64,000 nt of DNA, from positions 2,256,501 to 2,320,500 of the forward strand of contig NZ_CP023548.1 of the NCBI RefSeq assembly GCF_002407205.1, read 5' to 3'. Below, one piece after another: positions 2,158-35,045 of this stretch. A program made the translations under genes and the position numbers. The DNA comes from Rhodobacter sp. CZR27. GTDB taxonomy: Bacteria > Pseudomonadota > Alphaproteobacteria > Rhodobacterales > Rhodobacteraceae. The first letter of the stretch is position 1. Each line of letters opens with the position of its first letter. Under the pieces are notes generated by a model, which saw nothing but the letters and a program-made list of their open reading frames with translations, searched no databases and had not been told where the DNA came from.

Positions 2158-2207
2158 ATGTCTTCCGTCCGAGCTCAATGTCCTACCGAATGGCCGCCGG
2201 CGCGGCC

Positions 2208-3011
2208 CTAAGCTTCACGTGCACGGCCCTGTTGCGGTCGGGGCAGGCTTCCGCCAAGACCGCAGGCCTGCAATGCCGTTTCGATGTCGTTCGTCACGAT
2301 GTCGGCCCCCGGCAGTGACGCGGTTTCGGTTCCGTCGAGGAAGAGGGCCCCGCCGACGGCGACCGGCACCGTGTTGCCGGTCATGTCCTTCAGCGTCTTC
2401 ACCAGATTGCGGCAGACTTCAAGCATCTCCGCATGTGCGATCGAAATGAGCACGGCGTCAAATCCCCGCCGCACGAAAAGTTCCCGCAGTTCCGCCGGCC
2501 CGGTGCCGATCCTGAGGCAGACCGAGATGCCCAGCCGCCGCAGCTTCGCCACCGCGACCATGGCGCCCAGCGTGTGCTGCTCGCCCTGCGGCAGCAGCAC
2601 GAGGACCGTTGGGCCGTCGCGCATCCCGCTCTCGTCGGCCGACCACGAGGTGGCGATGTCGCGCAGGATCGCCTGCAGTCGGGCGGTCCCGATCGTCACC
2701 TCGGCGAAGGTGCAGGTATCCTCGTGCCAGCCCTGCCCCAGCCGGCGCGCGACCTCGGGGATGTAGAGTTCGGCCAGCGCCACGCGGCTCACGCGGGCGC
2801 GGCGAAGCTCGGGCTTGAGCGCCTCGAAGGGCGCTCGTCCCGTGCTGCGCACGGCATCGAGCAGGCGGCGGACCAGATCCTCGCGCATGGGCGCGTTCGT
2901 GGCGCCGTCGCGGGCGGACAGTCTGGCGACGATCTCGGCCGCGAAGCGGGAGACGGCCACCGGCCCGTCGCCGGCGAGCCCAACCCTCTCTCTGTGCAAG
3001 CCGTCATGCAT
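2208..3011 (-). CDS. ppaA: PpaA/AerR-type cobalamin-binding antirepressor
   Basis: A 267-residue protein of the PpaA/AerR family, which binds B12 and counteracts PpsR/CrtJ. An N-terminal helical region (ARRLGQGWHEDTCTFAEVTI, helix-bundle cap of B12 sensors) is followed by a Rossmann-like B12-binding fold with VLVLLPQGEQHTLGAMV and VPVAVGGALFLD. I chose the ATG at 3011 because GGAG sits 6 nt before it; an in-frame ATG at 3101 has no ribosome site. The stop is 50 bp from the ppsR start and both genes run leftward. The gene diverges from bchF over a region with two PpsR sites, so PpsR may control its own antirepressor. Confidence 0.88.
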   Translation of the reverse strand: MHDGLHRERVGLAGDGPVAVSRFAAEIVARLSARDGATNAPMREDLVRRLLDAVRSTGRAPFEALKPELRRARVSRVALAELYIPEVARRLGQGWHEDTCTFAEVTIGTARLQAILRDIATSWSADESGMRDGPTVLVLLPQGEQHTLGAMVAVAKLRRLGISVCLRIGTGPAELRELFVRRGFDAVLISIAHAEMLEVCRNLVKTLKDMTGNTVPVAVGGALFLDGTETASLPGADIVTNDIETALQACGLGGSLPRPQQGRAREA

Positions 3012-3152
3012 CACCAGCTCCACCGGGCACCGGTCCACCCTCCCGCGAGCCGGGCCGCGGGACTCCTTGTTCGAATGCAGGGGAGCGCAGGACCGGCGCA
3101 TGCGGCATCGGCCGGACGCTCGTGGGCAGACTGTTCACCAAGCGCGGAAAGA

Positions 3153-3170
3153 TGTCAAAGAAAATTGACA
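3153..3170. promoter_or_regulatory. PpsR-type operator, distal to bchF
   Basis: TGTC-AAAGAAAATT-GACA is an exact TGTC-N10-GACA palindrome with an A-rich centre. Its 145-bp distance from the next site fits the known ability of PpsR/CrtJ to act at two separated sites. It may serve ppaA, bchF or both. Confidence 0.75.
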
Positions 3171-3297
3171 CCTTGCTCCGCGAGGCTGTGGATGCGGCGG
3201 CGTATCAGCTTGTTTTCCCTTTTCAATCACGGCGTATTGTCGCAGCTTCCGGGCGTCGGTCTGCCGGTTTGCCGCACCCCCCTGCGGCTGCAAAAGA

Positions 3298-5156
<1,859 letters not shown>

Positions 5157-5226
5157 CGCATCCCCACCATCCCAATTCTCGGCTATCCCAACGCCAAGGG
5201 GCGGCTCACGGCCCCGGGAACCGGAC

Positions 5227-6795
5227 ATGAAACTGACGCTCTGGACATATGAAGGCCCGCCCCACGTGGGCGCGATGCGCGTCGCGACCGGCATGACCGG
5301 CCTGCATTACGTGCTGCACGCCCCGCAGGGGGATACCTATGCGGACCTGCTCTTCACCATGATCGAGCGGCGCGGCAAGCGCCCGCCGGTCAGCTACACC
5401 ACCTTCCAGGCCCGCGACCTCGGCTCGGATACCGCCGAGGTGTTCCAGTCGGCCTGCCGCGACGCCTATGAGCGGTTCCAGCCGCAGGCGATCATGGTGG
5501 GCTCGTCTTGCACGGCCGAGTTGATCCAGGACGACACCGGCGGCCTCGCCGACGCGCTGAACCTGCCGGTTCCGGTCGTTCACCTGGAACTGCCCTCCTA
5601 CCAGCGCAAGGAGAACTTCGGCGCGGACGAGAGCTTCCTGCAGATCTGCCGCAAGCTCGCCAAGCCGATGGAGCGCACCGCGCAGGTGTCCTGCAACATC
5701 CTCGGTCCGACGGCGCTCGGCTTCCGGCACCGGGACGACGTGACCGAGATCACCCAGCTTCTGCAAGGCATGGGGATCGCGGTGAACGTGGTGGCGCCGA
5801 TGGGGTCGAGCCCTGCCGACATCGCCCGGCTGGGAGCGGCGCATTTCAACGTCCTCCTCTACGCCGAAACAGCCGAATCCGCCGCCCGCTGGGCCGAGAA
5901 GGCGCTGAAGCAGCCCTACACCAGGGTCGTGCCCATCGGCGTCGGCGCCACCCGCGACTTCATTGCGGAAGTGGCGAAGCTCGCCGGCGTGGAGCCGAAG
6001 GCAGACGAGAGCCGCCTGCGCCAGCCGTGGTGGTCGGCCTCGGTCGACTCGACCTACCTCACCGGCAAGCGGGTGTTCCTGTTCGGCGACGCGACCCATG
6101 TGATCGCCGCCGCCCGCATCGCCCGCGACGAGGTCGGCTTCGAAGTCGTCGGCATGGGCTGCTACAACCGCGAATACGCCCGCCCGATGCGGGCCGCCGC
6201 GAAGGACTACGGCCTCGAGGCGCTGGTCACCGACGACTATCTCGAGGTCGAGGAGGCGATCCAGAACCTCGCGCCCGAGCTGATCCTCGGCACGCAGATG
6301 GAGCGTCACATCGCCAAGCGCCTCGGCATCCCCTGCGCCGTGATCTCGGCTCCGGTCCACGTCCAGGACTTCCCGGCCCGCTATTCGCCGCAGATGGGGT
6401 TCGAAGGCGCGAACGTCATCTTCGACACCTGGATCCATCCGCTGGTCATGGGGCTCGAGGAGCACCTCCTCACCATGTTCCGCGAGGATTTCGAGTTCCA
6501 CGACGAGGCCGGCGCCTCGCACCACGGCGGCAAGGCGGTGCCGGCATCGGCGCCCCGCGCCGAGGCCACGGCCGACGAGGGGTCAATCCCCGAGGAGGCC
6601 GTCCCCCCCGTCGTGGCCGAGGCAACCACGGGCGAGATCGTCTGGCTGTCGGACGCCGAGAAGGAACTGAAGAAGATCCCGTTCTTCGTGCGCGGCAAGG
6701 CGCGGCGGAACACCGAGAAATTCGCGGCTGAAAAGGGCCTGACCCGGATCAGCATCGAGACCCTGTACGAGGCGAAGGCTCATTATGCGCGGTGA
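5227..6795 (+). CDS. bchB: Light-independent protochlorophyllide reductase subunit B
   Basis: Second subunit of the NB component, 522 residues from the ATG at 5227. Asp36 (PQGDTYAD), the unusual aspartate ligand of the NB cluster, is present, as is the conserved Cys in GSSCTAEL. The N-terminal two thirds is the nitrogenase-like core. After a low-complexity Pro/Ala/Glu-rich linker (about residues 425-460) comes the conserved C-terminal domain ([20 protein letters not shown]). A 70-bp gap follows bchN, and the last 11 bases overlap bchH in another frame. Confidence 0.97.
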
Positions 6796-15530: not shown

Positions 15531-15827
15531 ATGGGTCTGTTCACGAGAGAAGCCGAAGAGGTGCCCTGCACCGTCGAAGTGAGTCATCGGTTCGAGTCCC
15601 TGCACGCGCATGTGCGCTTTGACAATGGTGCCATCGTCCATCCGGGCGATGAGGTTCTGGTTCACGGCGCGCCGGTGCTGGCCGCCTTCGGCGAGGTGGT
15701 GGTCGAGGAGCGCACCGCCACCATCACCCGCGCCAGCCTGCTGGAGCGGCTCTGGACCCGCGCCACGGGCGATCTGGGCGCGATGGAGTTGTGCGAATTC
15801 TCGTTCTCCGAACAGGTGACGCTGTGA
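15531..15827 (+). CDS. Conserved 98-aa photosynthesis-cluster protein, function unknown
   Basis: A soluble 98-residue protein, no signal or membrane segment, with ATG at 15531 and AAGGGAA upstream. It is rich in short beta strands (CTVEVSHRF, HVRFDNGAIVHPGDEVLVHG). It lies between puhC and acsF, and its stop overlaps the acsF GTG (GTGA), so the two are probably translated together. A gene in this position is present in R. sphaeroides. The tight coupling suggests a role with the AcsF cyclase, but this is inference. Confidence 0.8.
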   Translation: MGLFTREAEEVPCTVEVSHRFESLHAHVRFDNGAIVHPGDEVLVHGAPVLAAFGEVVVEERTATITRASLLERLWTRATGDLGAMELCEFSFSEQVTL

Positions 15828-16915
15828 ACGCGGCGCCCGGAGATCTCTCCCCGATCCTCACCCCGCAGGCCGTCGCCGATACCACGGCAATGGCGACGGA
15901 AACCCACATCCTCAACCCGCGCTTCTACACCACCGATTTCGACGAGCTGGACCGGATCGACGTGACGCCGGTGCGCAAGGACTGGGACCAGCTGATCGCC
16001 GAGATGAAGGCCGACCCGAACAAGGCGCATTTCCGCAAGACGGATGACTGGGACCATGTGGACTGGGAGGCAATGGACCCCGCCCTGAAGGTCGAGTTCA
16101 TCGATTTCCTCGTGTCCTCCTGCACCGCCGAGTTCTCGGGCTGCGTGCTCTACAAGGAGATGAAGCGGCGCGGTTCGAACCCCGACATCTGCGAGCTGTT
16201 CAACTACATGGCGCGCGACGAGGCCCGGCATGCGGGCTTCATCAACGACGCGCTGCGCGAGGCGGGCGTGGCGGTGAACCTGGGCTTCCTGACCAAGGCG
16301 AAGAAATACACCTACTTCCGGCCGAAGTTCATCTACTACGCCACTTACCTGTCGGAAAAGATCGGCTACGCGCGCTACATCACGATCTACCGCCACCTCG
16401 AGGCGAACCCCGAGCATCGGTTCCACCCGATCTTCAAGTGGTTCAGGGAGTGGTGCAACGACGAGTTCCGTCACGGCGAGGCCTTCGCCCTGCTGATGAA
16501 GACCGATCCGAAGCTGACCACCTCGACGGTCAACAAGCTGTGGATCCGGTTCTTCCTGACCGCGGTCTATTCCACGATGTGGGTGCGCGATCACGCCCGG
16601 CCCGAGTTCCACAAGGCGCTTGGCGTGGACATCGACTGGTATGACCAGGAGGTGTTCCGCAAGACCTCCGAGATCGCGCGGCAGATCTTTCCGGTCGAGA
16701 TCGACATCGACCATCCGCGCTGGAAACCGGCGCTGAACCGCATGAACGCAGGCTTCCTTGCGATGGACGCAGGCAGCCGGCAGGGCGGGCTTGGCGGCCG
16801 GCTGAAGCAGGCGCTTGGCATGGCGCGGGCGGCGGCCGCCTTCGTCTCGCTCTACACCATCCCGGTCAAGGAACATTACCTGCCGGAAAACGTCCGCCTG
16901 GAGCCGAGCTATTGA
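15824..16915 (+). CDS. acsF: Aerobic Mg-protoporphyrin IX monomethyl ester oxidative cyclase
   Basis: AcsF is the diiron enzyme that forms ring E with O2 and NADPH, the aerobic counterpart of BchE. I chose the GTG at 15824 (363 residues), overlapping the previous stop; an internal ATG at 15890 is the only other early candidate. Ferritin-like diiron motifs are ARDEARHAGF and CNDEFRHGEAF with upstream carboxylates in SSCTAEFSGC. The C-terminus PVKEHYLPENVRLEPSY is typical. It lies between the 98-aa orf and puhE in the reaction-centre operon. Confidence 0.95.
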   Translation: MNAAPGDLSPILTPQAVADTTAMATETHILNPRFYTTDFDELDRIDVTPVRKDWDQLIAEMKADPNKAHFRKTDDWDHVDWEAMDPALKVEFIDFLVSSCTAEFSGCVLYKEMKRRGSNPDICELFNYMARDEARHAGFINDALREAGVAVNLGFLTKAKKYTYFRPKFIYYATYLSEKIGYARYITIYRHLEANPEHRFHPIFKWFREWCNDEFRHGEAFALLMKTDPKLTTSTVNKLWIRFFLTAVYSTMWVRDHARPEFHKALGVDIDWYDQEVFRKTSEIARQIFPVEIDIDHPRWKPALNRMNAGFLAMDAGSRQGGLGGRLKQALGMARAAAAFVSLYTIPVKEHYLPENVRLEPSY

Positions 16916-16976
16916 CTGTTCAAGACACAAGGGGGCGGGCCTCGCCCGCTTCCTGCGTAAGGCGGAGTGACCGCTG

Positions 16977-17852
16977 ATGTTCACGAGTCCCTGGGTCGTC
17001 GCCCTGTCGGCCATCTTCGTCTGGTGGTTCTCCACCGGCATCCTGCTGTGGCGGGTGCGCCATGCCGACAACCGCGGCCCCGAGTCTCACATGACCTCGG
17101 TCATCATCGGACTGCCGCTGCTGTTCGCGGGCGTCTGGGGGTATTCCCAGACGCTTGCCGACCTGTCGGTGCAGGGCGTCTACATCGCCTTCCTCTCGGC
17201 GCTCGCGATCTGGGGCTGGATCGAGCTGGCCTTCCTTTCGGGCGTCATCACCGGCCCGAACACCGAGCCCTGCCCACTCTACGCCCGCCCGGCCGAACGC
17301 TTCCTGCGCGCCGTGGGCACCGTGCTCTGGCACGAGATCGTTCTGGTGACGGTGCTGGTCGCGATGTCGATGCATGCGGTCGGCACGCCCAACCACTTCG
17401 GGCTCTGGACCTTCATGATCCTGTTCATCGCCCGGGTCTCGGCAAAGCTGAACCTCTACATGGGCGTGCCCTACATCAACGTCGAGTTCCTGCCGACGAC
17501 GCTTTCGCATCTGCCGAGCTACTTCCGCCGCACGCGGATGAACAACTTCTTCCCGCTGTCGGTGACGCTTCTCACCTTCGCCACCGGCTGCTGGGTCGAG
17601 CGCGCGCTGTCGGCCGGGGGATCGGCGCATCGCGCCGTGGGGTTCTGGCTGCTGGCCGCGCTGACCGCCCTGGCGGTGCTGGAACACTGGTTCATGGTGG
17701 TGAACCTGCAGGACAAGCGCCTGTGGAAATGGATGATGCCCGAGCCGCGCATCCCCGTCGGCCCGCGTCATGCGTCCCCGCCGCAGCCCCACCGGCCGCT
17801 GCCCGAGCCCGCGAGCGGGCTGCTCAAGGAAAAGGCGAACGGGCTGCCCTAG
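16977..17852 (+). CDS. puhE: Photosynthetic complex assembly membrane protein PuhE
   Basis: A 291-residue protein with about seven membrane helices, starting MFTSPWVVALSAIFVWWF and ending in a Pro-rich cytoplasmic tail. PuhE influences bacteriochlorophyll flux and RC-LH1 assembly in Rhodobacter capsulatus. It follows acsF after 61 bp that contains a small GCGGGC/GCCCGC hairpin, and is the last gene of the reaction-centre operon here. Confidence 0.9.
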   Translation: MFTSPWVVALSAIFVWWFSTGILLWRVRHADNRGPESHMTSVIIGLPLLFAGVWGYSQTLADLSVQGVYIAFLSALAIWGWIELAFLSGVITGPNTEPCPLYARPAERFLRAVGTVLWHEIVLVTVLVAMSMHAVGTPNHFGLWTFMILFIARVSAKLNLYMGVPYINVEFLPTTLSHLPSYFRRTRMNNFFPLSVTLLTFATGCWVERALSAGGSAHRAVGFWLLAALTALAVLEHWFMVVNLQDKRLWKWMMPEPRIPVGPRHASPPQPHRPLPEPASGLLKEKANGLP

Positions 17853-18706: not shown

Positions 18707-18711
18707 CTCCT
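18707..18711. repeat. Target-site duplication CTCCT, left copy
   Basis: CTCCT directly abuts the outer end of the left inverted repeat and matches the copy at 26894-26898. Removing one copy and the element joins the cycA terminator region to the end of urtE, restoring a short intergenic gap. Confidence 0.9.
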
Positions 18712-18749
18712 GGGGTCTGCTGCCGGAGGGCGCAGAAAAGTACGCTAAG
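18712..18749. repeat. Left terminal inverted repeat
   Basis: A 38-bp repeat beginning GGGGTCTGCTGCCGGAGGGC and ending GTACGCTAAG. It differs from the right copy at positions 16, 20, 27 and 34. The tnpR stop codon (18745-18747) lies inside it. Confidence 0.95.
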
Positions 18750-19332
18750 GTCCGACTGGTCGGCTGACGCGGTTCAGGGTTCGGTAGACGGTCGGCCTGG
18801 AGACGGAGAAGAGTTCGGCCAGGTCGCTGATCGAGTAGTCGCCTGAGCCATGCATACGCCTCAGCTCTTTCTGCTGCCTTTCCGACAGCTTGGGCTGCTT
18901 GCCGCGCAGCTTGCCCCGCGCTCTGGCGATCGCCATTCCCTCGCGCGTCCGCGCGCGGATGAGGTCGGCCTCGAACTCCGCGAAGGTGGCGAGGACATTG
19001 AAGAACATCTTGCCCATCGGATCCGGGGGATGGTGAACCACCGCACCCAGCGCAAGCCGCACGCCCTTGGCGGCGAACTGGTCGGCGATGGCGCGGGCAT
19101 CGGGAACCGACCGCGCCAGGCGGTCGAGCTTGGAGACCACGAGCGTGTCGCTCTCCCGGACGGCGGCGAGCGCCTGATCGAGACCTGGCCGGGCGCGACT
19201 CGTCCCGGTCATGCCGTGGTCGGTGTAGATGCGATCTTCGGCAACACCCAGGGCCGCCAGCGCCTGCTTCTGCGCTTCGAGATCCTGCTTGTCGGTCGAG
19301 CAGCGGGCATAGCCGATGAGGGTCCGGGTCAT
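18745..19332 (-). CDS. tnpR: Serine recombinase, Tn3-type resolvase
   Basis: A 195-residue resolvase/invertase. The catalytic domain begins LIGYARCSTDKQ with the nucleophile Ser12, and the active-site arginines lie in VSKLDRLARSV. The DNA-binding C-terminus ends with a helix-turn-helix (SISDLAELFSVSRPTVYRTL). I chose the ATG at 19332 because the conserved fold starts there; 12 codons upstream is another ATG. Its role would be to resolve cointegrates at a res site, most likely in the 190 bp upstream. It reads as intact, in contrast to tnpA, and its stop codon sits in the terminal inverted repeat. Confidence 0.93.
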   Translation of the reverse strand: MTRTLIGYARCSTDKQDLEAQKQALAALGVAEDRIYTDHGMTGTSRARPGLDQALAAVRESDTLVVSKLDRLARSVPDARAIADQFAAKGVRLALGAVVHHPPDPMGKMFFNVLATFAEFEADLIRARTREGMAIARARGKLRGKQPKLSERQQKELRRMHGSGDYSISDLAELFSVSRPTVYRTLNRVSRPVGP

Positions 19333-19439
19333 GCAGCCGAGCGTACGGATAGGGACCCGCTTGCGCAAATTGTTCCGTACCAGTCATATGAGACGACTTT
19401 GCCGAGCATCTTCCAGAAGCCGAAGGGTTCGGCCACAGC

Positions 19440-19465
19440 GTCCGCAGAGGGTTCCTCTTGCGGAC
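19440..19465. repeat. Palindrome upstream of tnpR, candidate res subsite
   Basis: GTCCGC-AGAGG-GTT-CCTCT-TGCGGAC is a 26-bp near-perfect palindrome about 110 bp upstream of tnpR, in the gap where a Tn3 res site is expected. It could equally be an intrinsic hairpin beyond the MarC-like gene. Confidence 0.4.
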
Positions 19466-19523
19466 AGGTTTTCCGTCTTGCGCCCCGAGGAGGGCAGGAG
19501 GGAGGCCAGCGCCCTCATGAGTC

Positions 19524-20120
19524 TTACTGCGCCCCGATCATCTGCGTCGCGTTGATCAGGAACTGGAGGGCAAGCGCGAACTGGAGCACGCCGAACACGG
19601 CTCCGAACAGCTGAAGCGGGACGGGTCCAACCCTGCGCAGGATCGCTTTCGAACGCCGCATCAGGAGCCAGTTCACCAGCACCAGAGAGAGACCCATGGC
19701 CACCAGGCCCGCCTTGGTCTCCCGCCCTGGGAAGGGTACGCTGAAGATCAGCGGGATGGATACCGCGATCGGCGGGAAGAGACCGGGAAAGGCTATGGCG
19801 GCGGCTGACGGCGCAGCGGCATCAGCCGGAGGCGCAGAAGTGGGCTGCAGAAGCGCCTGCAACGACAGTGCGAAAAGCGCGGCGCCCCCCGCCGCGATCA
19901 GCGCCGGGAACGACACCCCCCAGTTGGCGAGAACGGCATTGCCGACAAGCACCGTCATCAGGAAGGCCGCCGCCACGAGCAGCGACGCGCGCGTGGCGAG
20001 GGCTCGGACCTCGGGCGCATCGTCGCTCGGGCCGACACGCGCGAAGACGGCGATCGCGCGGATCGGTCCCATCGTCATGAACAGCAGCCCGAAGAGGCTG
20101 CCCCAGGGCATGCTGGTCAT
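19524..20120 (-). CDS. MarC-like integral membrane protein (transposon cargo)
   Basis: A 198-residue membrane protein with about six helices, resembling the MarC/UPF0056 family: LFGLLFMTMGPIRAIAVFARVGP matches the family's N-terminal pattern (Phe, NP-like motif, Phe) and FPALIAAGGAALFALSLQALL the second repeat. The function of MarC proteins is unsettled; export of small molecules has been suggested. Start at 20120 with GGGAGA upstream. Last gene of the cargo unit, 73 bp after the outer-membrane gene. Confidence 0.75.
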   Translation of the reverse strand: MTSMPWGSLFGLLFMTMGPIRAIAVFARVGPSDDAPEVRALATRASLLVAAAFLMTVLVGNAVLANWGVSFPALIAAGGAALFALSLQALLQPTSAPPADAAAPSAAAIAFPGLFPPIAVSIPLIFSVPFPGRETKAGLVAMGLSLVLVNWLLMRRSKAILRRVGPVPLQLFGAVFGVLQFALALQFLINATQMIGAQ

Positions 20121-20193
20121 CAGGATGTCTCTCCCTTGTAGGTGATGAGGCCCTGCCTCGACGGCGCTCTTCGGCCTCGGCCTCGCATCATCG

Positions 20194-21870
20194 CTAGAAG
20201 GTCCAGAAGAGTTGTGCCTGTAGCGTGGTCCAGCGTTCGGCCTCGCCGTCCGTCGCGTCGCGAATGGCCTCTCCGGGAAACGCGACCGAGGCCACGCCGA
20301 GGAAGTAGAGGTTGTCCGACACCGCCCAGCGGGTGGTGAACTGGACCTCGCGCCCAAGCTCGTCCCAGGTCAGCTGTCCGAGCGCCGGGTTGGCGCCGAT
20401 GTTGTTCAATTCGTCCGCGCGGTGCAGGAAGACGTCGAATGTCAGGTCGAGCCGCTCCGTCGGCTCGAGGTTCAGCCGGATGCGGTGGCTCAGTCGGTTC
20501 TCGGGCCGCAGCACCTTGCCGAGCGAGATCCCCTGAAGCCATTCCGACAGCCCGCCCGACCAGAGCGCGTCGAACCTCTCGTAGCGCGCCGTCGAAGGAT
20601 CGTCGCCCGAGAAGGCCGAGGTGCGCCAGGACAGGCTCGGCCGCCAGGGCAGGTCCGCGGCGAGGTAGCCCAACGTACCATAGCCCGCCCAGGCGCTCAT
20701 GTCGAAGTCGTCGTGGCGCTGATGGGCGATCTCGCCCTCCAGCCAAAGCCCCGGCGCCACCGCGGGATCGGCCCACCGCAGATGGGCCGCAGCGGTCGAA
20801 AGCCCCTCGCGCGTGCCGATCACTCCGTCGGGCGTGCGATAGGCGGTGCGGGAGTCGAGGCCGCGGATGTAGCTCAAGTCGCCGTAGAAGCGGTCGGTGA
20901 CGTTGCGCCTGAGGTTGACGCCCGCGAGGATCGTGCCGCTTTCGAGCGGCTCGTATTCGTTCGGGTCGAGGTAGAAGGCGCTCGCCGTCCAGCCGTCCCA
21001 CTTGAGTGTGCCCAGCCCCGCGAAGTCGTGCGTGGTCCGCGGAGCAAGATAGACCCCCGGTCGCGGCCCTGCATTCCACTGCGAGCCGAACTGCGAGATC
21101 AGGAAGCCGTCGTTCAAGGTGAAGTTCTGCCGCCCGAACGAGAGGTTGATGCTGCGGGCGCGGTCGTCGGTCCCCCAGAGAAGACCTGCATAGGCTTTCT
21201 CCACGTCCAGCGTCGCGCGCGTGTCGGCGCGGAAGATGTCGCGTCCCGTCGAAAGAGGCGCCATTACGGTCGCAGCGCCATAGAGCGCGAAGTTGCTGTC
21301 GCCCAGCCGGGTGACGCCGGCGATGCCGGTTTCGACCCAGGCCTCGGCCCAGGTGGCGCGGCGGCCGGTTCCGGCGCCTACGGCCGGTTCCTCGACCAGC
21401 GGATTGCCCAAGGTGAAATTCGCGGGATTTCCGAACCAGGGGTTGCCGTCCGAGAAGGCGCCGATGCCGCCGTTCAGGATCACCCGCGCCATGCCTGCGT
21501 CGCCGCGCCAGAGGATCGGGAAGGCGGGCGGCTTGGCCGGATCCGCGCGCAGTCGCAGCACGGCCGCGCTGCGGCCGGCGCCGGACGGCCGCAGGTCCAG
21601 ATCCGCCGACCCCACGCCCGGCAGAGCCTGGACCCGGGAGAGTGCCGCATCCAGGACCGTCTGGGTCGGCCGATCCCCGGGCGACAGCCCCAGCACCTCC
21701 TGCGCGCGGGCCGCCAGCGCGGGATCGACGCCGGAGGCCTGCACCTCGACCCTCTCGAGTGCCAGCGTCTCCGGGGCTAGGACAAGCGCGCCGGGACCGC
21801 CCAGGCCCGCCCCCTCCTGTGCCGTCGCCGGATGCGCCAGCGCGAGCGCCAGCAGGAGGGCCCGCCTCAT
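20194..21870 (-). CDS. Outer-membrane beta-barrel protein, alginate-export-like (transposon cargo)
   Basis: A 558-residue protein with an 18-residue signal peptide (RRALLLALALAHPATAQ). About 100 residues form a small soluble domain (ERVEVQASGVDPALAARAQE, like a POTRA-type fold). The rest is alternating beta strands with many aromatic residues, ending in the C-terminal phenylalanine of outer-membrane barrels (QAQLFWTF). The strands NLSFGRQNFTLNDGFLIS and HDFAGLGTLKWDGW resemble the AlgE/alginate-export family. A substrate channel in the outer membrane is the likely role; the substrate is unknown. Its ATG overlaps the stop of the upstream SDR (ATGA). Confidence 0.8.
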   Translation of the reverse strand: MRRALLLALALAHPATAQEGAGLGGPGALVLAPETLALERVEVQASGVDPALAARAQEVLGLSPGDRPTQTVLDAALSRVQALPGVGSADLDLRPSGAGRSAAVLRLRADPAKPPAFPILWRGDAGMARVILNGGIGAFSDGNPWFGNPANFTLGNPLVEEPAVGAGTGRRATWAEAWVETGIAGVTRLGDSNFALYGAATVMAPLSTGRDIFRADTRATLDVEKAYAGLLWGTDDRARSINLSFGRQNFTLNDGFLISQFGSQWNAGPRPGVYLAPRTTHDFAGLGTLKWDGWTASAFYLDPNEYEPLESGTILAGVNLRRNVTDRFYGDLSYIRGLDSRTAYRTPDGVIGTREGLSTAAAHLRWADPAVAPGLWLEGEIAHQRHDDFDMSAWAGYGTLGYLAADLPWRPSLSWRTSAFSGDDPSTARYERFDALWSGGLSEWLQGISLGKVLRPENRLSHRIRLNLEPTERLDLTFDVFLHRADELNNIGANPALGQLTWDELGREVQFTTRWAVSDNLYFLGVASVAFPGEAIRDATDGEAERWTTLQAQLFWTF

Positions 21871-22661
21871 TTCCCGAAGAGGCGCACGACGCCGCCGCCG
21901 CCGTGGACGTTGATGGTCTGCCCGCTGACCCAGCCACTGGCGGGCGAGCAGAGCCAGAGCATGGCGTTGGCCACGTCCTCGGCGCGGCCCGGCCGGCCGG
22001 TCAGGTTGTCGGGATGCATCAGCCGCTCCTGCATGGCCGGATCGATGCCGGCCGCGCCGTAGCCCGCCGTCATCACCGTTCCGATCAGGACCGAGTTCAC
22101 CCGCACCTTCTGCGCCAGCATGTGGGCGATCGACACCATCATCTGGTTCAGCGCGGCCTTGGCGGTGCCGTAGGCGAGGATGTCGTAGGCCGGCACCGCC
22201 GACGAGAAGGACCCCGAATTGGTGATCGTGGGATTCTCCGCCTTCATGAGGTGCGGCAGGCAGGCCATGCTCATCCGGTAGGCGCTGATCGTGTTGAGCT
22301 TGTAGGAGGCGATGAAGTCCTCTTCCGGGATCGCGGTCGGGTCTTCGTGCCGGCCACCCCAGCCCACGTTGTTGACGAGCGTCGAGATGCCTCCGAAGGC
22401 TGTCACGGTGGCCGCCACAACGGCGTCGATCGCCGCCTTGTCGGTCACGTCGCAGGCCATGCCGCGGCAGTCGTTGCCCGTTTCGGCCGCGATGGCCGCG
22501 GCGGTTTCAGCCGCAAGATCGCCGTTCAGATCCGCGATCATCACCTTCGCTCCGGCGCCGCTCAGCGCCCTGGCGATACCCGCGCCGATGTTCTGCGCGC
22601 CTCCGGTGATGACGGCCTGATGACCGTCCATGCGGAAATCCGCGAGTGCATCGTAGCCCAT
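21867..22661 (-). CDS. Short-chain dehydrogenase/reductase (transposon cargo, first SDR)
   Basis: A 264-residue classical SDR. The NAD(P) motif is TGGAQNIGAGIA (one step off the usual TGxxxGIG), with NNVG at about 95 and the active-site region SGSFSSAVPAYDILAYGTAK giving Ser, Tyr and Lys. It lacks the usual basic residue after beta2 (ADLNGD), which suggests NAD preference. Like the next gene it resembles 7-alpha-hydroxysteroid or secondary-alcohol dehydrogenases, but the substrate cannot be read from sequence. Overlaps the outer-membrane gene by 4 bp; the second SDR lies 15 bp upstream. Confidence 0.85.
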   Translation of the reverse strand: MGYDALADFRMDGHQAVITGGAQNIGAGIARALSGAGAKVMIADLNGDLAAETAAAIAAETGNDCRGMACDVTDKAAIDAVVAATVTAFGGISTLVNNVGWGGRHEDPTAIPEEDFIASYKLNTISAYRMSMACLPHLMKAENPTITNSGSFSSAVPAYDILAYGTAKAALNQMMVSIAHMLAQKVRVNSVLIGTVMTAGYGAAGIDPAMQERLMHPDNLTGRPGRAEDVANAMLWLCSPASGWVSGQTINVHGGGGVVRLFGK

Positions 22662-22676
22662 GCCCTTCTCCCCTCG

Positions 22677-23444
22677 TCAGTCCAGTTCCTGCACGCCGCC
22701 GCCCGAGACGGTCAGCACTTGCCCGCTGATCCAGCTCGAGGCCGGGGCGCAGAGGAACAGCGCCGCATGCGCGATGTCCTCGGGCTCGCCCAGGCGCCCG
22801 AGCGGCGTGTGCTTCAGCATCGCCGTCTCGATCTCGGGGGTCAGCACCGAGGCCAGCGCGTCGGTCTTGATGGCTCCCGGCGCGATCGCATTCACACGGA
22901 TGCCCTTCGGCCCGAGGTCGAAAGCCACGTTGCGCGTCAGGTGGTTCACTGCGGCCTTCGACGAGGCGTAGGAGGCCATCATCCGGTTGCGGTTCTCGCC
23001 CGCCATCGACGAGATGTTGAGCACGGCACCACCCCCGGCTGCCTCCATGTGCGGCGCGCAGAGCTGCGTCAGCCGGAAGAGCGAGAAGACGTTCAACTCG
23101 TAGGCCCAGCGGAACGTGTCCATCGGCATGTCGAAGGGCTTGGGACCCCCGCCGCCAGCGTTGTTCACCAGGATGTCGATCCGCCCGAAGGCGTCGAGCG
23201 CCTCGGCCACCAGGGCCTCGAGCTGCGCCGGATCCGTCACGTCGCAGGCCACCCCCACGGCACGGCCGCCGGCCTCCGAGATGGTTTCCGCAACGGCCTC
23301 CGCCGCTTCCGCCTTCAGGTCCGAGACCACGACCGACGCCCCGGCTTCGGCAAAAAGCCGGGCGATGCCGCGCCCGATCCCGGCCCCTCCACCCGTGACG
23401 ATGGCCGTCCGCCGGTCGAGGCGGAACCTGTTCATGTCCAGCAT
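22677..23444 (-). CDS. Short-chain dehydrogenase/reductase (transposon cargo, second SDR)
   Basis: A 255-residue classical SDR with TGGGAGIGRGIA, NNAGGGG and catalytic Ser-Tyr-Lys in LNISSMAGENRNRMMASYAS and SYASSKAA. The aspartate after beta2 (VSDLKAE) suggests NAD. The start ATG at 23444 has GGGGGA 6 nt upstream; a longer open frame extends to 23762 but overlaps the regulator and lacks support. The two SDRs are paralogous but clearly different, so they may catalyse successive oxidations or opposite stereochemistry on the same compound. Confidence 0.87.
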   Translation of the reverse strand: MLDMNRFRLDRRTAIVTGGGAGIGRGIARLFAEAGASVVVSDLKAEAAEAVAETISEAGGRAVGVACDVTDPAQLEALVAEALDAFGRIDILVNNAGGGGPKPFDMPMDTFRWAYELNVFSLFRLTQLCAPHMEAAGGGAVLNISSMAGENRNRMMASYASSKAAVNHLTRNVAFDLGPKGIRVNAIAPGAIKTDALASVLTPEIETAMLKHTPLGRLGEPEDIAHAALFLCAPASSWISGQVLTVSGGGVQELD

Positions 23445-23526
23445 GGCTTGTCCCCCGTTTGTCAGCCGAAGGCTAAGGGCGAAGCCCGCGCACGCGAAAC
23501 GGGGTACCTGCCCAAAATGGGCAGTA

Positions 23527-23994
23527 TCAGAGCATCCGCTCGAGGTCCGTGACCAGCCGCGCCACGCGGTCGATGGCGCGGGCGTCCAGCGCCTCAAGAC
23601 CCAGGCGCGCGACGGCCTGCCGGTCCTCGACCGCCAGGGACCAGCGCCCTTGCGGGCCGCGCGTCGCCCAGCCCTTTGCTTCCAGCAGGGCGAGCTTGCG
23701 GCGCACCGTCTCGCGGGGGATGCCCGTGACGTCCGCAAGCCGTGAGGCCGAAGTGGAGCCACGATCCTCGGGCAGCGTCCAGGGATCGAGGCCGTCGGCG
23801 GCAGCGTCCCGCATGGCGCGCATCCGGACCTGCCCGAGCAGCGCCAGCACGATCATCTGCTGCAGGTCGCCCTTAAACACGCGGCTCAGGTCCGACAGGT
23901 GCTCGGCGAAGAACTCGACGAATTGATACTGGAACGTCAGGTAGTCGGCGGCAAAGGCGGAACGCACCTGTTCTCTGCGTTCGACACGGGTCAT
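23527..23994 (-). CDS. Winged-helix transcriptional regulator (transposon cargo)
   Basis: A 155-residue protein with a helix-turn-helix at about 85-120 (SASRLADVTGIPRETVRRKL, then LLEAKGW), the pattern of MarR/IclR-like winged helices. The N-terminal half is helical. It is the first gene of the cargo on the minus strand, 82 bp before the second SDR, and is probably its local regulator. Ligand and operator unknown. Confidence 0.75.
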   Translation of the reverse strand: MTRVERREQVRSAFAADYLTFQYQFVEFFAEHLSDLSRVFKGDLQQMIVLALLGQVRMRAMRDAAADGLDPWTLPEDRGSTSASRLADVTGIPRETVRRKLALLEAKGWATRGPQGRWSLAVEDRQAVARLGLEALDARAIDRVARLVTDLERML

Positions 23995-24438
23995 CGCAAG
24001 ACACTCCTCTGGCCGGCAGTCGGATCGGCCCGTGAACTGCAGCGGCGCTTGCCGCTGCCTGTCAAGACTCCGCCCAAGGCAGATTGTGCCAGGGCTCGCA
24101 GGCGCCGATCAAGGCTTCCACTGAGTGCGATGATCCGCAGGACCGGCCTCCCCGCGGCTCAGCTCGAGCGAGATCCCTGCAGGGCCTGACTTTGCCGATC
24201 CGTTTGGCGCACCGGATCTGACGAGCATCCGAACGCGGCCGGAAAGGCTCGCGGCTCTCCAGGAGCAGACGTCGGGAGAATACTGCCGTGGTGCGAGGAC
24301 TCGATCCCGAAACAGACATCAGGCTCCGGAGAGCGTGACTGCTCGCTCACGGTGCCACGCGCTCCTGTCCATGACCTTGTCGTCCAGCCACATGATACCT
24401 GCCAAAGCGTCACGCGAGATCAACGATGCAAGAGTCCC
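23995..24438. other. Gap between cargo regulator and tnpA
   Basis: 444 bp between divergently read genes. No convincing coding frame, tRNA or strong palindrome is visible. It should contain the promoters of the cargo unit and of tnpA. Confidence 0.5.
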
Positions 24439-26847
24439 ATGGCCAGACGTTCCGTTCTCACCGATCGCCAGCGCTCCTCCATCTGGGCGCTACTGACGGA
24501 CGAGCCGACCCTGCTGCGGCATTACACGCTGGCGGACGACGATCTCGACCACATCCGTGCCCGCCGCCGGGCGCACAACCGCTTCGGCTTCGCCCTCAAG
24601 CTCTGCGCTCTCCGGTTCCCCGGGCGGCTTCTGGCGCCGGGCGAGGTCATTCCCGAAGCGATTTTCCGTTTCCTCGGGGCGCAGCTCGGCCTCAGCCCTG
24701 ACGCCCTGATCGGCTATGCCATCCGGGCAGGGACGCGGCGCGCATCTCGGCGAGTTGCGCGAGATCTATGGCTACCGGATGTTTTCGGGCCGCGGCGCGC
24801 GGGATCTGAAGGTCTGGCTCGACGACCAAGCCGAACTGGCGCGGACGAACGAAGACCTCGTGCGGCGCTTCGTCGAGGAATGCCGGCGCACCCAGACCAT
24901 CCTGCCGGGGCTGACCGTGATCGAGCGGCTCTGTGCCGACGCCTTGGTCGCCGCCGAGCGCCGGATCGACGCGTGCATCGCTGCCCGTCTCGATGCCCGG
25001 ATGCGCGAGCGGCTCGAGGCGCTGCTCAAGGAGGTCGAGCGCGTCAGCCGCTTCGTCTGGCTGGGCAGTTCGAGGTGGGGAAGAACTCGGCCGACATGAA
25101 CCGCCTGCTCGACCGGCTGGAGTTCCTGCAGGGGCTAGGGCTCTCCGCCGATGTCCTGAAGGAGGTGCCGCCGCACCGGATCGCCCGGCTGCGCAGGCTC
25201 GGGGAGCGCTATTTCACCGACGATCTGCGCGATGTTTCGGGCGATCGGCGGCTGGCGATCCTGGCCACCTGCGCGGTGGAGTGGCAGGCCGGCCTTGCCG
25301 ATGCGATCGTCGAGACGCACGACCGGATCGTCGGACGGACGTGGCGCGATGCGAAGGCGCGCTGCGATGTCCGCATCGCCGATGCCCAGGCGGCATTGCA
25401 GGAAACGCTGCGGTCCTTCTCGGATCTGGGGGCCGCCCTGCTGGAGGCGCACGGCGATGGCGCCCCGCTCGATGGGGCCGTCGCATCCTCCTGCGGCTGG
25501 CAGAAGCTGCAGGGTCTGGTCGCGGCCGCCAGCTCGCTCACCGACACGATGGCGGCGGACCCGTTGGCCCATGTCGTCCAGGGCTATCCGCGTTTCCGGC
25601 GCTACGCGCCGCGCATGATCCGCGCGCTCGACATCCGGGCGGCACAGGTGGCCGAGCCGCTGCTCGCGGCCGCGAAGATGATCGCCCAGGATGCTCCGGC
25701 AGGTCCCCGACCGACCACCTTCCTGCGCCGCTCGTCACGCTGGCACCGCCATCTCCAGCGGCAGGAGGCCGGCGATCGCCGAAGGCCTGAACCTCGGCCT
25801 GAGCAAGATGGCCGAGGCCACCGACAGCCACGACTACTTCCAGCTCTCGCGCCTGTCGCGCTGGCACGTCGAGAGCGCGGCGATGAACCGGGCGCTCGCC
25901 ACGGTGATCGAGGCGCAGGCCGCGCTGCCGATGGCGCGGGTCTGGGGTGCCGGTCTCACCGCCTCCAGCGACGGCCAGTTCTTCCCGGCGGCCCGGCGGG
26001 GCGAGGCGATGAACCTCGTGAACGCGAAATACGGCAATGAACCGGGGGTGAAGGCCTACACCCATGTCTCGGACCAGTTCGGCCCCTTCGCCACCCAGAC
26101 CATTCCGGCGACAGTGAACGAGGCGCCCTACATTCTGGACGGCCTGCTGATGAACGAGCAGGGCCGCCGGATCCGCGAAAGCTTCGCCGATACGGGCGGT
26201 TTTACGGATCATGTCTTTGCCATCACGGCGGCTTTGGGCTTCCGGTTCGTGCCGCGGATCCGCGACCTGCCGTCGAAGCGGCTTTACGTCTTCGACCCGG
26301 CGAGCGTCCCGAAGGAGCTGAGGGGCCTGATCGGCGGCAAGGTCCGCGAGGGCACCATCACCAGCAACTGGCACGACATCCTTCGTAGCGCGGCCACCAT
26401 GGTGGCGGGCATCCTGCCGCCGAGCCAGCTCTTGCGGAAGTTTGCCGCCTATCCGCGCCAGCACGACCTTGCCGTGGCGCTGCGGGAAATCGGACGGGTC
26501 GAGCGGACGCTCTTCATCATCGACTGGCTGCTGGATGCCGACCTCCAGCGGCGCGCGCAGATCGGGCTCAACAAGGGCGAGGCACACCACGCCCTGAAGA
26601 GCGCCCTGCGCATCGGCCGCCAGGGCGAGATCCGCGATCGGACGCCGAAGGCCAGCACTACCGGATGGCCGGCCTCTACCTGCTCGCCGCGATCATCATC
26701 TACTGGAACACAGCGCACTTGGGCCGCGCCGTCGGCGAGCGCGAGACCGCCGGGCTGGTCTGCCCGCCCGAATTCCTGGCCCACACTTCGCCCCTTGGCT
26801 GGGCGCACATCCTGCTGACCGGCGAGTACAGGTGGACGAAACAGTAG
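24439..26847 (+). pseudogene. tnpA: Tn3-family transposase, frameshifted and internally deleted
   Basis: The reading starts MARRSVLTDRQRSSIWALLT at 24439 and ends ILLTGEYRWTKQ at 26847, but it switches frame near 24735, near 25070, between about 25700 and 25790, and near 26641. The 803-codon span is some 190 codons short of the family's usual near-990, and the missing part fits the third lesion, where RRSSRWHRHL jumps to IAEGLNLGLSKMAEA. The catalytic residues survive in pieces: Asp in TASSDGQFF, Asp in ILDGLLMNE and Glu in RQGEIRDR. As written no active transposase can be made. Confidence 0.92.
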
Positions 26848-26855
26848 CTCTCGCT

Positions 26856-26893
26856 CTTAACGTACTATTCTGCCCCCGCCGGCAGCAGACCCC
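26856..26893. repeat. Right terminal inverted repeat
   Basis: Reading inward on the minus strand it begins GGGGTCTGCTGCCGGCGGGG and ends GTACGTTAAG, 9 bp beyond the tnpA stop. It matches the left repeat at 34 of 38 positions. Confidence 0.95.
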
Positions 26894-26898
26894 CTCCT
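26894..26898. repeat. Target-site duplication CTCCT, right copy
   Basis: CTCCT directly follows the right inverted repeat, 6 bp from the end of the urtE stop codon, and matches 18707-18711. Confidence 0.9.
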
Positions 26899-34491: not shown

Positions 34492-35045
34492 GCCGGGTCG
34501 GCGTCGGGCGCGTCATCCTCATCCGGCGGGCGCGAGACATGCAGGTGGACATGCGGATGGGCATGGCCATGCTCGTGCCCCGCCTCTTCGGGTCCGTGAT
34601 CGTGCCCCAGCGTGCGGCCGTGGCCGTAGGCGCCGCGCTCCGGCCGGAAGGGCTGGACCGCCTCGGCCACCGACGCCCCGAGCCCGCGCAGCATCTGCTC
34701 GAGCACGTGGTCGCGGCGGATCACCAGCCGGTCGGCCTCGATCTGGCAGGGCGTGTGGCGGTTGCCGATGTGCCAGGCAGCGCGGACCAGCGGGCCGGTC
34801 ACCACAAGCACCTCCTCCTCGGCTGCGCGCACCTCGATCAGGCGGCCGTCGGGGAGTTCGAAGGCGGACCCCTCCTCCAGATCCGCCGTCTCGGCCAGAT
34901 CGACAAGGAAGCTCTCGCCCGCCTCGGTCTCCAGCCGCTTGCGGCGCAGGAAGCGTTCATCATAGCCGAGCCGCACGAGACCCGCGGCCGCACCCGTCCA
35001 TTCGCCCGGTCGAAGCAGGCGGCGGGCATGGGGAAGCTCGGTCAT
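34488..35045 (-). CDS. ureE: Urease accessory nickel carrier UreE
   Basis: 185-residue Ni chaperone. The N-terminal and central domains (RLGYDERFLRRKRLETEAGE, AWHIGNRHTPCQIEADRLVI) contain the metal-binding His of the dimer interface. The C-terminus is a His-rich tail (HGRTLGHDHGPEEAGHEHGH, then HAHPHVHLHV) for extra nickel. Confidence 0.95.
   Translation of the reverse strand: MTELPHARRLLRPGEWTGAAAGLVRLGYDERFLRRKRLETEAGESFLVDLAETADLEEGSAFELPDGRLIEVRAAEEEVLVVTGPLVRAAWHIGNRHTPCQIEADRLVIRRDHVLEQMLRGLGASVAEAVQPFRPERGAYGHGRTLGHDHGPEEAGHEHGHAHPHVHLHVSRPPDEDDAPDADPA

Follow-up and report, generated by a model that had tools for sequence, protein, structure and literature searches.

The locus considered here raises the question of how a metabolic operon of Rhodobacteraceae came to lie beside the probable cytochrome c gene cycA of the photosynthetic bacterium Rhodobacter sp. 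CZR27, inside a transposon of the Tn3 family. The window analysed comprises 64,000 nucleotides (nt) of this genome, and the coordinates of the element, 18712-26893 (8,182 bp), are window positions. The element belongs to a clade of Tn3-family transposons with a slot between site I of the resolution region res and the transposase gene tnpA, and the operon occupies this slot; we consider it probable that the operon entered by an exchange carried out by the resolvase TnpR. Such a history would account for the landing of the operon beside cycA.

Boundaries and insertion site

The element is bounded by terminal inverted repeats (IRs) of 38 bp and of the GGGG...TAAG type, the motif quoted in the excerpted text of PMC6920998. 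The left repeat (IRL; 18712..18749, plus strand) and the right repeat (IRR; 26856..26893, minus strand), identified by repeat comparison, match at 34 of 38 positions. They are flanked by a perfect target-site duplication (TSD) of 5 bp, CTCCT, at 18707..18711 and 26894..26898. These terminal repeats, the 5-bp duplication and a resolution module, consisting of an intact TnpR frame and a conserved palindromic site I, are characteristic of the Tn3 family. An earlier sequence-only reading of this DNA had described a complete Tn3-family transposon between cycA and the urea genes, with the same count of matching repeat positions and the same exact duplication, and on position, family, repeats and duplication we agree. 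A scan of IRL against both strands of the window, allowing up to 13 mismatches, returned these two copies only, and the possibility that the repeats are part of a larger element was rejected because no further repeat was present in the 64 kb. Matching TSD pairs were found in nine of the eleven elements checked, the window included; the pairs of loci L058 and L129 mismatch.

The insertion lies between the 3′ ends of two convergent genes. The right neighbour is urtE (TIGR03410, 336 bits; cut-off 285.8), with UrtB encoded farther out. The left neighbour, a cytochrome c gene, scored 70 bits against the CycA cytochrome model, under the cut-off of 240 bits, and is likely cycA, short of a curated-level call. 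Deletion of the element leaves a cycA-urtE gap of 87 bp, as short as had been expected. The genome comparison for an empty site, suggested in the same reading, included four other genomes of the genus (G001-G004), one per species, of which G001 is 83% complete. The joined flanks align without interruption in G003 and G001, and in two parts in G002 and G004, with 246 and 354 bp between the parts, respectively. No Tn3 repeat was detected at 13 or fewer mismatches in the four cycA-urtE loci. The element is absent from this site in the four other congeners.

Resolvase gene and site I

The tnpR gene (18745..19332, minus strand) is intact and encodes a serine resolvase of 195 aa, with matches to PF00239 (137.8 bits) and HTH_7. 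Its stop codon TAG (18745-18747) falls within IRL, as already noted from the sequence, and this overlap is common to the relatives L127, L124-L126 and L058. The res region (19333..19465) was assigned by its position beside tnpR. It includes a palindrome of 26 bp with TT at its centre (19440..19465), located by palindrome match and conserved beside tnpR in relatives, which by position and symmetry is the predicted site I of res.

Forty-one out of 42 loci carry the palindrome GTCCG(N16)CGGAC beside tnpR. The pattern is matched in 35 loci, with one mismatch in five, and with two in L146, a fit that we estimate to be at about chance level in 400 bp; L147 has none. The 42 loci are not a random sample: 15 came from 13 of 35 genomes with a match, 24 were plasmid records that we selected among 483 with a match, and three were loci of the genus. 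Matches to TnpR occur in Cereibacter plasmids. The same module of tnpR and site I adjoins plasmid replication genes in L135 and a VapC/AbrB toxin-antitoxin (TA) pair in L136; no tnpA was found on this side in either locus.

Loads between site I and tnpA

The interval from site I to the start of tnpA in the window (19466..24438; about 4.97 kb, 4,974 bp) was delimited by comparison with relatives. The distance between tnpR and tnpA is about 5 kb, and cargo of that length between the two genes at opposite ends of the element had been recognised correctly, although the start of the cargo at site I had gone unremarked. TnpA starts 22-76 bp past site I in 16 of the 41 loci (35-96% identical at the start), including L127 (68 bp), L142 (29 bp) and L145 (33 bp). 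It starts more than 1 kb past site I in seven of the 41, the window included; the other six are L009 (4,025 bp, measured from residue 62 only), L059 (2,393 bp), L124-L126 (1,064 bp each) and L128 (1,056 bp), and L124-L126 and L128 have the same sequence following site I. In the remaining 18 loci, TnpA was not found on the site I side of the fetched stretch, where several have TniA-like or other plasmid genes.

Homology between the window and L127 begins at IRL, ends six bases past site I and resumes one base before tnpA, with 92% identity on both sides, and the load of 4.97 kb has no counterpart in the 68 bp of L127. Compared with L125, the boundaries lie within about one base of site I and within two bases of tnpA. 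In this clade, the same interval is shown to hold other, unrelated loads: there are four types, including the operon of the window. The layout, which had been called unusual, is so in relation to the textbook arrangement, but it is found repeatedly in this clade, with different cargo.

A copy in replicon C2 of the same genome (L009) carries genes for a short-chain dehydrogenase (SDR) and a cation P-type ATPase; its tnpR module is 99% and its tnpA end 96% identical to those of the window. No IRL-like repeat is left in the C2 copy at 14 or fewer mismatches, and as a consequence of this loss its tnpR gained a different C-terminus. The repeat was lost beside a transposase gene judged by eye to be IS5-like (L009 15272-15931 and 16157-16720). 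The load in G003 starts like that of C2 (92% identity in the first 100 bp, 94% in the next 300 bp) and also includes Na/H exchanger and Usp genes. The G003 element has both repeats and the TSD TCGTT, measures 6,986 bp on the assumption of a circular contig, and has a tnpR with two internal stops.

The elements L124-L126, from plasmids p3 and p4 of C. azotoformans SY5 and p.D of C. sphaeroides EBL0706, carry a MarR gene and a hypothetical gene, and are identical over 4,749 bp, with zero differences. Their TSDs are AGGGG, TATCA and AGGGG, respectively; since an identical element occupies two targets in one strain, slot-loaded elements transpose. The load of L059 consists of TniA- and TniB-like genes. 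L059, L060 and L061 are three contigs of one genome (G039), which share the same tnpR and site I and have identical TniA-/TniB-like genes. In the window, C2 and L124-L126, the gene adjacent to res points toward site I and ends 29-58 bp from it. L127 possesses other cargo beyond tnpA, inside the outer repeat (2166-5951), and a degraded internal repeat lies at 5905.

Exchange within site I

Plasmid joints in Pseudosulfitobacter pseudonitzschiae record an exchange at this site. NZ_CP086929.1 (L178) carries two copies of site I, at 25802-25827 and 34865-34890. At the first joint, the tnpR half is identical to NZ_CP086867.1 (L177) at 700/700 positions and the other half to NZ_CP086878.1 (L137) at 869/870. 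At the second joint the partners are reversed, with 700/700 to L137 and 869/870 to L177. The three records come from different strains of this species. L177 is a Tn3-type element, in which tnpR is followed by the start of a DUF4158 transposase, and L137 is a TniA/B element. The two tnpR halves are about 76% identical (492/645 aligned bases), with no alignment in the 100 bp beside the site, and the other two halves do not align at all. Homology at the joint is limited to the 26 bp of site I, in which one base of the left arm differs. The two joints of NZ_CP086929.1 are the reciprocal products of a crossover inside site I, and the parental joints are present on the other plasmids. With both products and both parental joints found, exchange at site I is seen to occur naturally in this clade. 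The place of the crossover and the shortness of the homology point to the resolvase as the probable agent, as 26 bp is too short for usual homologous recombination. One further plasmid (L134) has the tnpR half alone in common with one of the joints (698/700). The central dinucleotide of site I is TT in the Cereibacter elements and AT in the Pseudosulfitobacter elements compared.

Within Rhodobacter sp. CZR27, the tnpR modules of the window and C2 differ in 5 of 722 columns, and 519 bp through site I are identical, whereas the tnpA ends differ in 39 of 1,082 columns (Fisher p=3.4e-5 against the tnpR modules). The tnpR and tnpA modules are about equally far from L127 (92%). The tnpR half of the window seems to derive from the C2 lineage, by transfer or by gene conversion, and to be joined at site I to a different right half.

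Route of the operon into the slot

The basic form of the clade, which is mainly alphaproteobacterial, is IR-tnpR-res-tnpA-IR. The element of the window inserted between the convergent genes with a 5-bp duplication. Putative action of TnpR at site I would move blocks into and out of the slot. The operon of the window, which elsewhere in Rhodobacteraceae is free of the transposon, may have entered in this way, and we infer its arrival by site I exchange from the sequence comparisons above.

Several points weigh against this route. No element with this operon was found at another site I, and no exchange was caught for the cargo of the window. The junction on the tnpA side is not a res half-site, so that the route demands a further, unexplained break at this point; only about 17 bp ahead of tnpA look conserved, by eye. 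The start of tnpA is missing in C2, which leaves the site I side alone comparable, and the near-identity of the tnpR modules of the window and C2 could be the result of gene conversion. A search for a res half-site where the cargo meets tnpA was negative, as the element has no GTCCG(N14-18)CGGAC besides 19440-19465. Seven further matches carry one mismatch, and these fall in tnpR or at its start, or within genes of the cargo.

The cargo could also have been brought by nested transposition of a Tn5053-like res-hunting element, or of an insertion sequence, into the short res-tnpA interval, with later loss of its own genes and ends. Transposons of the Tn5053/Tn402 type take res as their entry point, and the TniA-/TniB-like genes of L059 fill the same interval. 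Bacillus mercury transposons with mobile elements between res and mer are a comparable case, and the excerpted text of PMC6920998 regards this region as a potential hot spot of mobile elements. We nevertheless regard nested transposition as unlikely, given that every load starts at, or a few bases from, site I and that no TniA/TniB match was found in the whole window (tblastn with the L059 proteins as queries, E<=1e-5). The outer pair is the sole pair of Tn3-type repeats in the window, where no specific search for other mobile-element ends in the slot was made. A different account holds that the cargo position is ancestral in a Cereibacter sub-lineage, and that the cargo differences arose by homologous recombination or gene conversion without involvement of TnpR. 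Joint descent predicts the similarity of C2 and G003 on the tnpR side (85-93%; 92.6, 93.0 and 85.0% by block) and on the load side (90-94%; 92.0, 94.3 and 89.9%), and a conversion tract would give the 519 identical bp through site I in the window and C2. This account is distinctly unlikely in view of the short intervals in the close relative L127 and in L142 and L145, and of the joints in NZ_CP086929.1, whose common 26 bp fall below the length that homologous recombination is generally known to need.

It may finally be asked whether the element is an ordinary Tn3-family remnant with metabolic cargo and of no mechanistic interest. It bears the hallmarks of the family, its tnpA is broken, and both variation in cargo and exchange of modules are documented for Tn3 elements (excerpted texts of PMC7157771 and PMC3281130). 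We find this somewhat unlikely, because four different loads occur at site I in this clade, and a non-TA operon of 5 kb at site I departs from the statement on non-TA passengers in the excerpted part of PMC7157771. Entry of the operon through TnpR exchange at site I is the reading that we prefer.

A wider and more tentative proposal, to which we give somewhat less than an even chance, is that site I is a general docking and exchange joint. TnpR would swap everything beyond this putative joint, including tnpA, TniA/B, plasmid genes and metabolic operons, between unrelated elements, and the central dinucleotide would set the trading partners. If true, docking at site I would account for passenger genes that abut res.

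Comparison with known systems

According to the excerpted text of PMC7157771, TA pairs adjoin site I of res and non-TA passengers generally lie away from res; Tn5501.12 fits an exchange at site I, and the route by which TA genes were acquired at res is described there as unclear. The clade studied here bears on how passengers reach this res-adjacent niche. Similar to those TA elements, the window has its extra genes abutting site I between tnpR and tnpA. However, its load is a metabolic operon of 5 kb with a probable regulator of its own. In the divergent elements of the same text the TA genes run with tnpA, whereas the cargo of the window lies on the strand opposite to tnpA, and its res-adjacent gene points toward site I, unlike the TA genes described.

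The cryptic Paracoccus transposons Tn6122 and Tn3434a, of about 3.7-3.8 kb, possess tnpA and tnpR with res and repeats of 38-39 bp, as described in the excerpted part of PMC3281130. Their resolvases are 28% and their transposases 73% identical, as would follow from an exchange of the resolvase module. The window element is likened to them by description; it shares the basic tnpA-tnpR-res layout, but Tn6122 and Tn3434a, which were captured as functional elements, are without cargo.

Close relatives of the window element are L127 and L124-L126, with TnpR 93-94% identical, one to four mismatches in the IRs, the same site I and tnpA DNA 92-93% identical. Unlike the window, L127 (C. azotoformans pORIO1) has an empty slot, and L124-L126 have the MarR and hypothetical genes there and a tnpA annotated as whole. 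Kholodii reportedly wrote of a "shuffling function of resolvases". The literature search found no paper with both "Tn3 family" and "Cereibacter sphaeroides", and no further paper on non-TA cargo at site I, subscription papers being outside its scope. Relative to the excerpted literature compared, three features are new: the slot is occupied by an operon other than a TA pair, a single clade carries several unrelated loads, and a reciprocal exchange is documented by its two products together with the two parental joints.

Transposase gene and mobility

The element was described as complete from its sequence, which applies to both ends and to tnpR; tnpA is a frameshifted pseudogene that has lost about 470 bp. 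It occupies 24439..26847 on the plus strand, with DUF4158 and the Tn3 DDE domain (PF01526, 333 bits) present in separate frames of the broken gene. Compared with L125 and L127, whose tnpA are whole frames of 962 codons each including the stop, it has several small out-of-frame losses in addition to one deletion of about 470 bp. The intact TnpA of the relative L127 scores 1007 bits against NF033527 (cut-off 500). One small lesion is common to the second copy in the genome and absent in L125, L127 and G003, which argues for a common broken ancestor or homogenisation. A search with the C-terminal piece of TnpA covered 61 genomes, five of them with a match, and the own genome possesses two cognate copies only, both broken (E<=1e-50). 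Given the broken tnpA and the state of these two copies, the element is probably immobile today unless a TnpA helps in trans.

Cargo operon

The cargo consists of five genes in the order regulator-SDR1-SDR2-OMP-MarC, all on the minus strand, with tnpA on the plus strand. The regulator (23527..23994) is a probable winged-helix protein, with every Pfam hit under the gathering score, and accompanies the operon. SDR1 (22677..23444) is a short-chain dehydrogenase similar to 7-alpha-hydroxysteroid dehydrogenases (HSDHs; PRK06113, 463 bits, cut-off 367), and its best sequence matches in the PDB are 7-alpha-HSDHs. SDR2 (21867..22661) was assigned as a short-chain dehydrogenase by domain and model matches. 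The next gene (20194..21870) encodes a protein of 558 aa with an Alginate_exp domain (PF13372), taken as an outer-membrane protein (OMP). No meaningful PDB sequence match was found for it, and a 96% identical protein occurs in a record named Cereibacter sphaeroides. The last gene (19524..20120) encodes a MarC-family membrane protein (PF01914). No type II TA pair was detected by the Pfam domains of the five cargo open reading frames (ORFs), a scan that left short ORFs in 23995-24438 outside.

An alignment search of genome contigs with SDR2 matched 29 loci, six of which encode a relative of 72-82% identity. All five genes were matched in the same order in Rhodovulum strictum (L149), where marC is split over two frames, and in Roseovarius litoreus (L151). 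L153 has SDR1, SDR2, OMP and MarC on a contig that starts just before SDR1, and L148, L150 and L152 have the SDR1-SDR2 pair, with OMP and MarC not in the stretch. No match to TnpR, TnpA or the IRs was found in the seven loci checked (these six and L154). Other Rhodobacteraceae carry the operon at sites with no matching transposon. A recent import of the cargo from a sequenced donor was rejected, as the longer DNA matches to the best donors are about 65-77% identical.

The operon would import and oxidise a hydrophobic hydroxylated compound. Near the Roseovarius operon, P450, fumarylacetoacetase-like and transporter genes were named by eye, and the genes in this neighbourhood suggest catabolism. 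A small membrane gene lies between OMP and MarC in R. litoreus (L151 10582-11049) and R. strictum (L149); the corresponding interval of the window (20120-20194) is without it. The photosynthesis genes for AcsF and PuhE are located at 15791-17852 of the window, just upstream of the cytochrome c gene.

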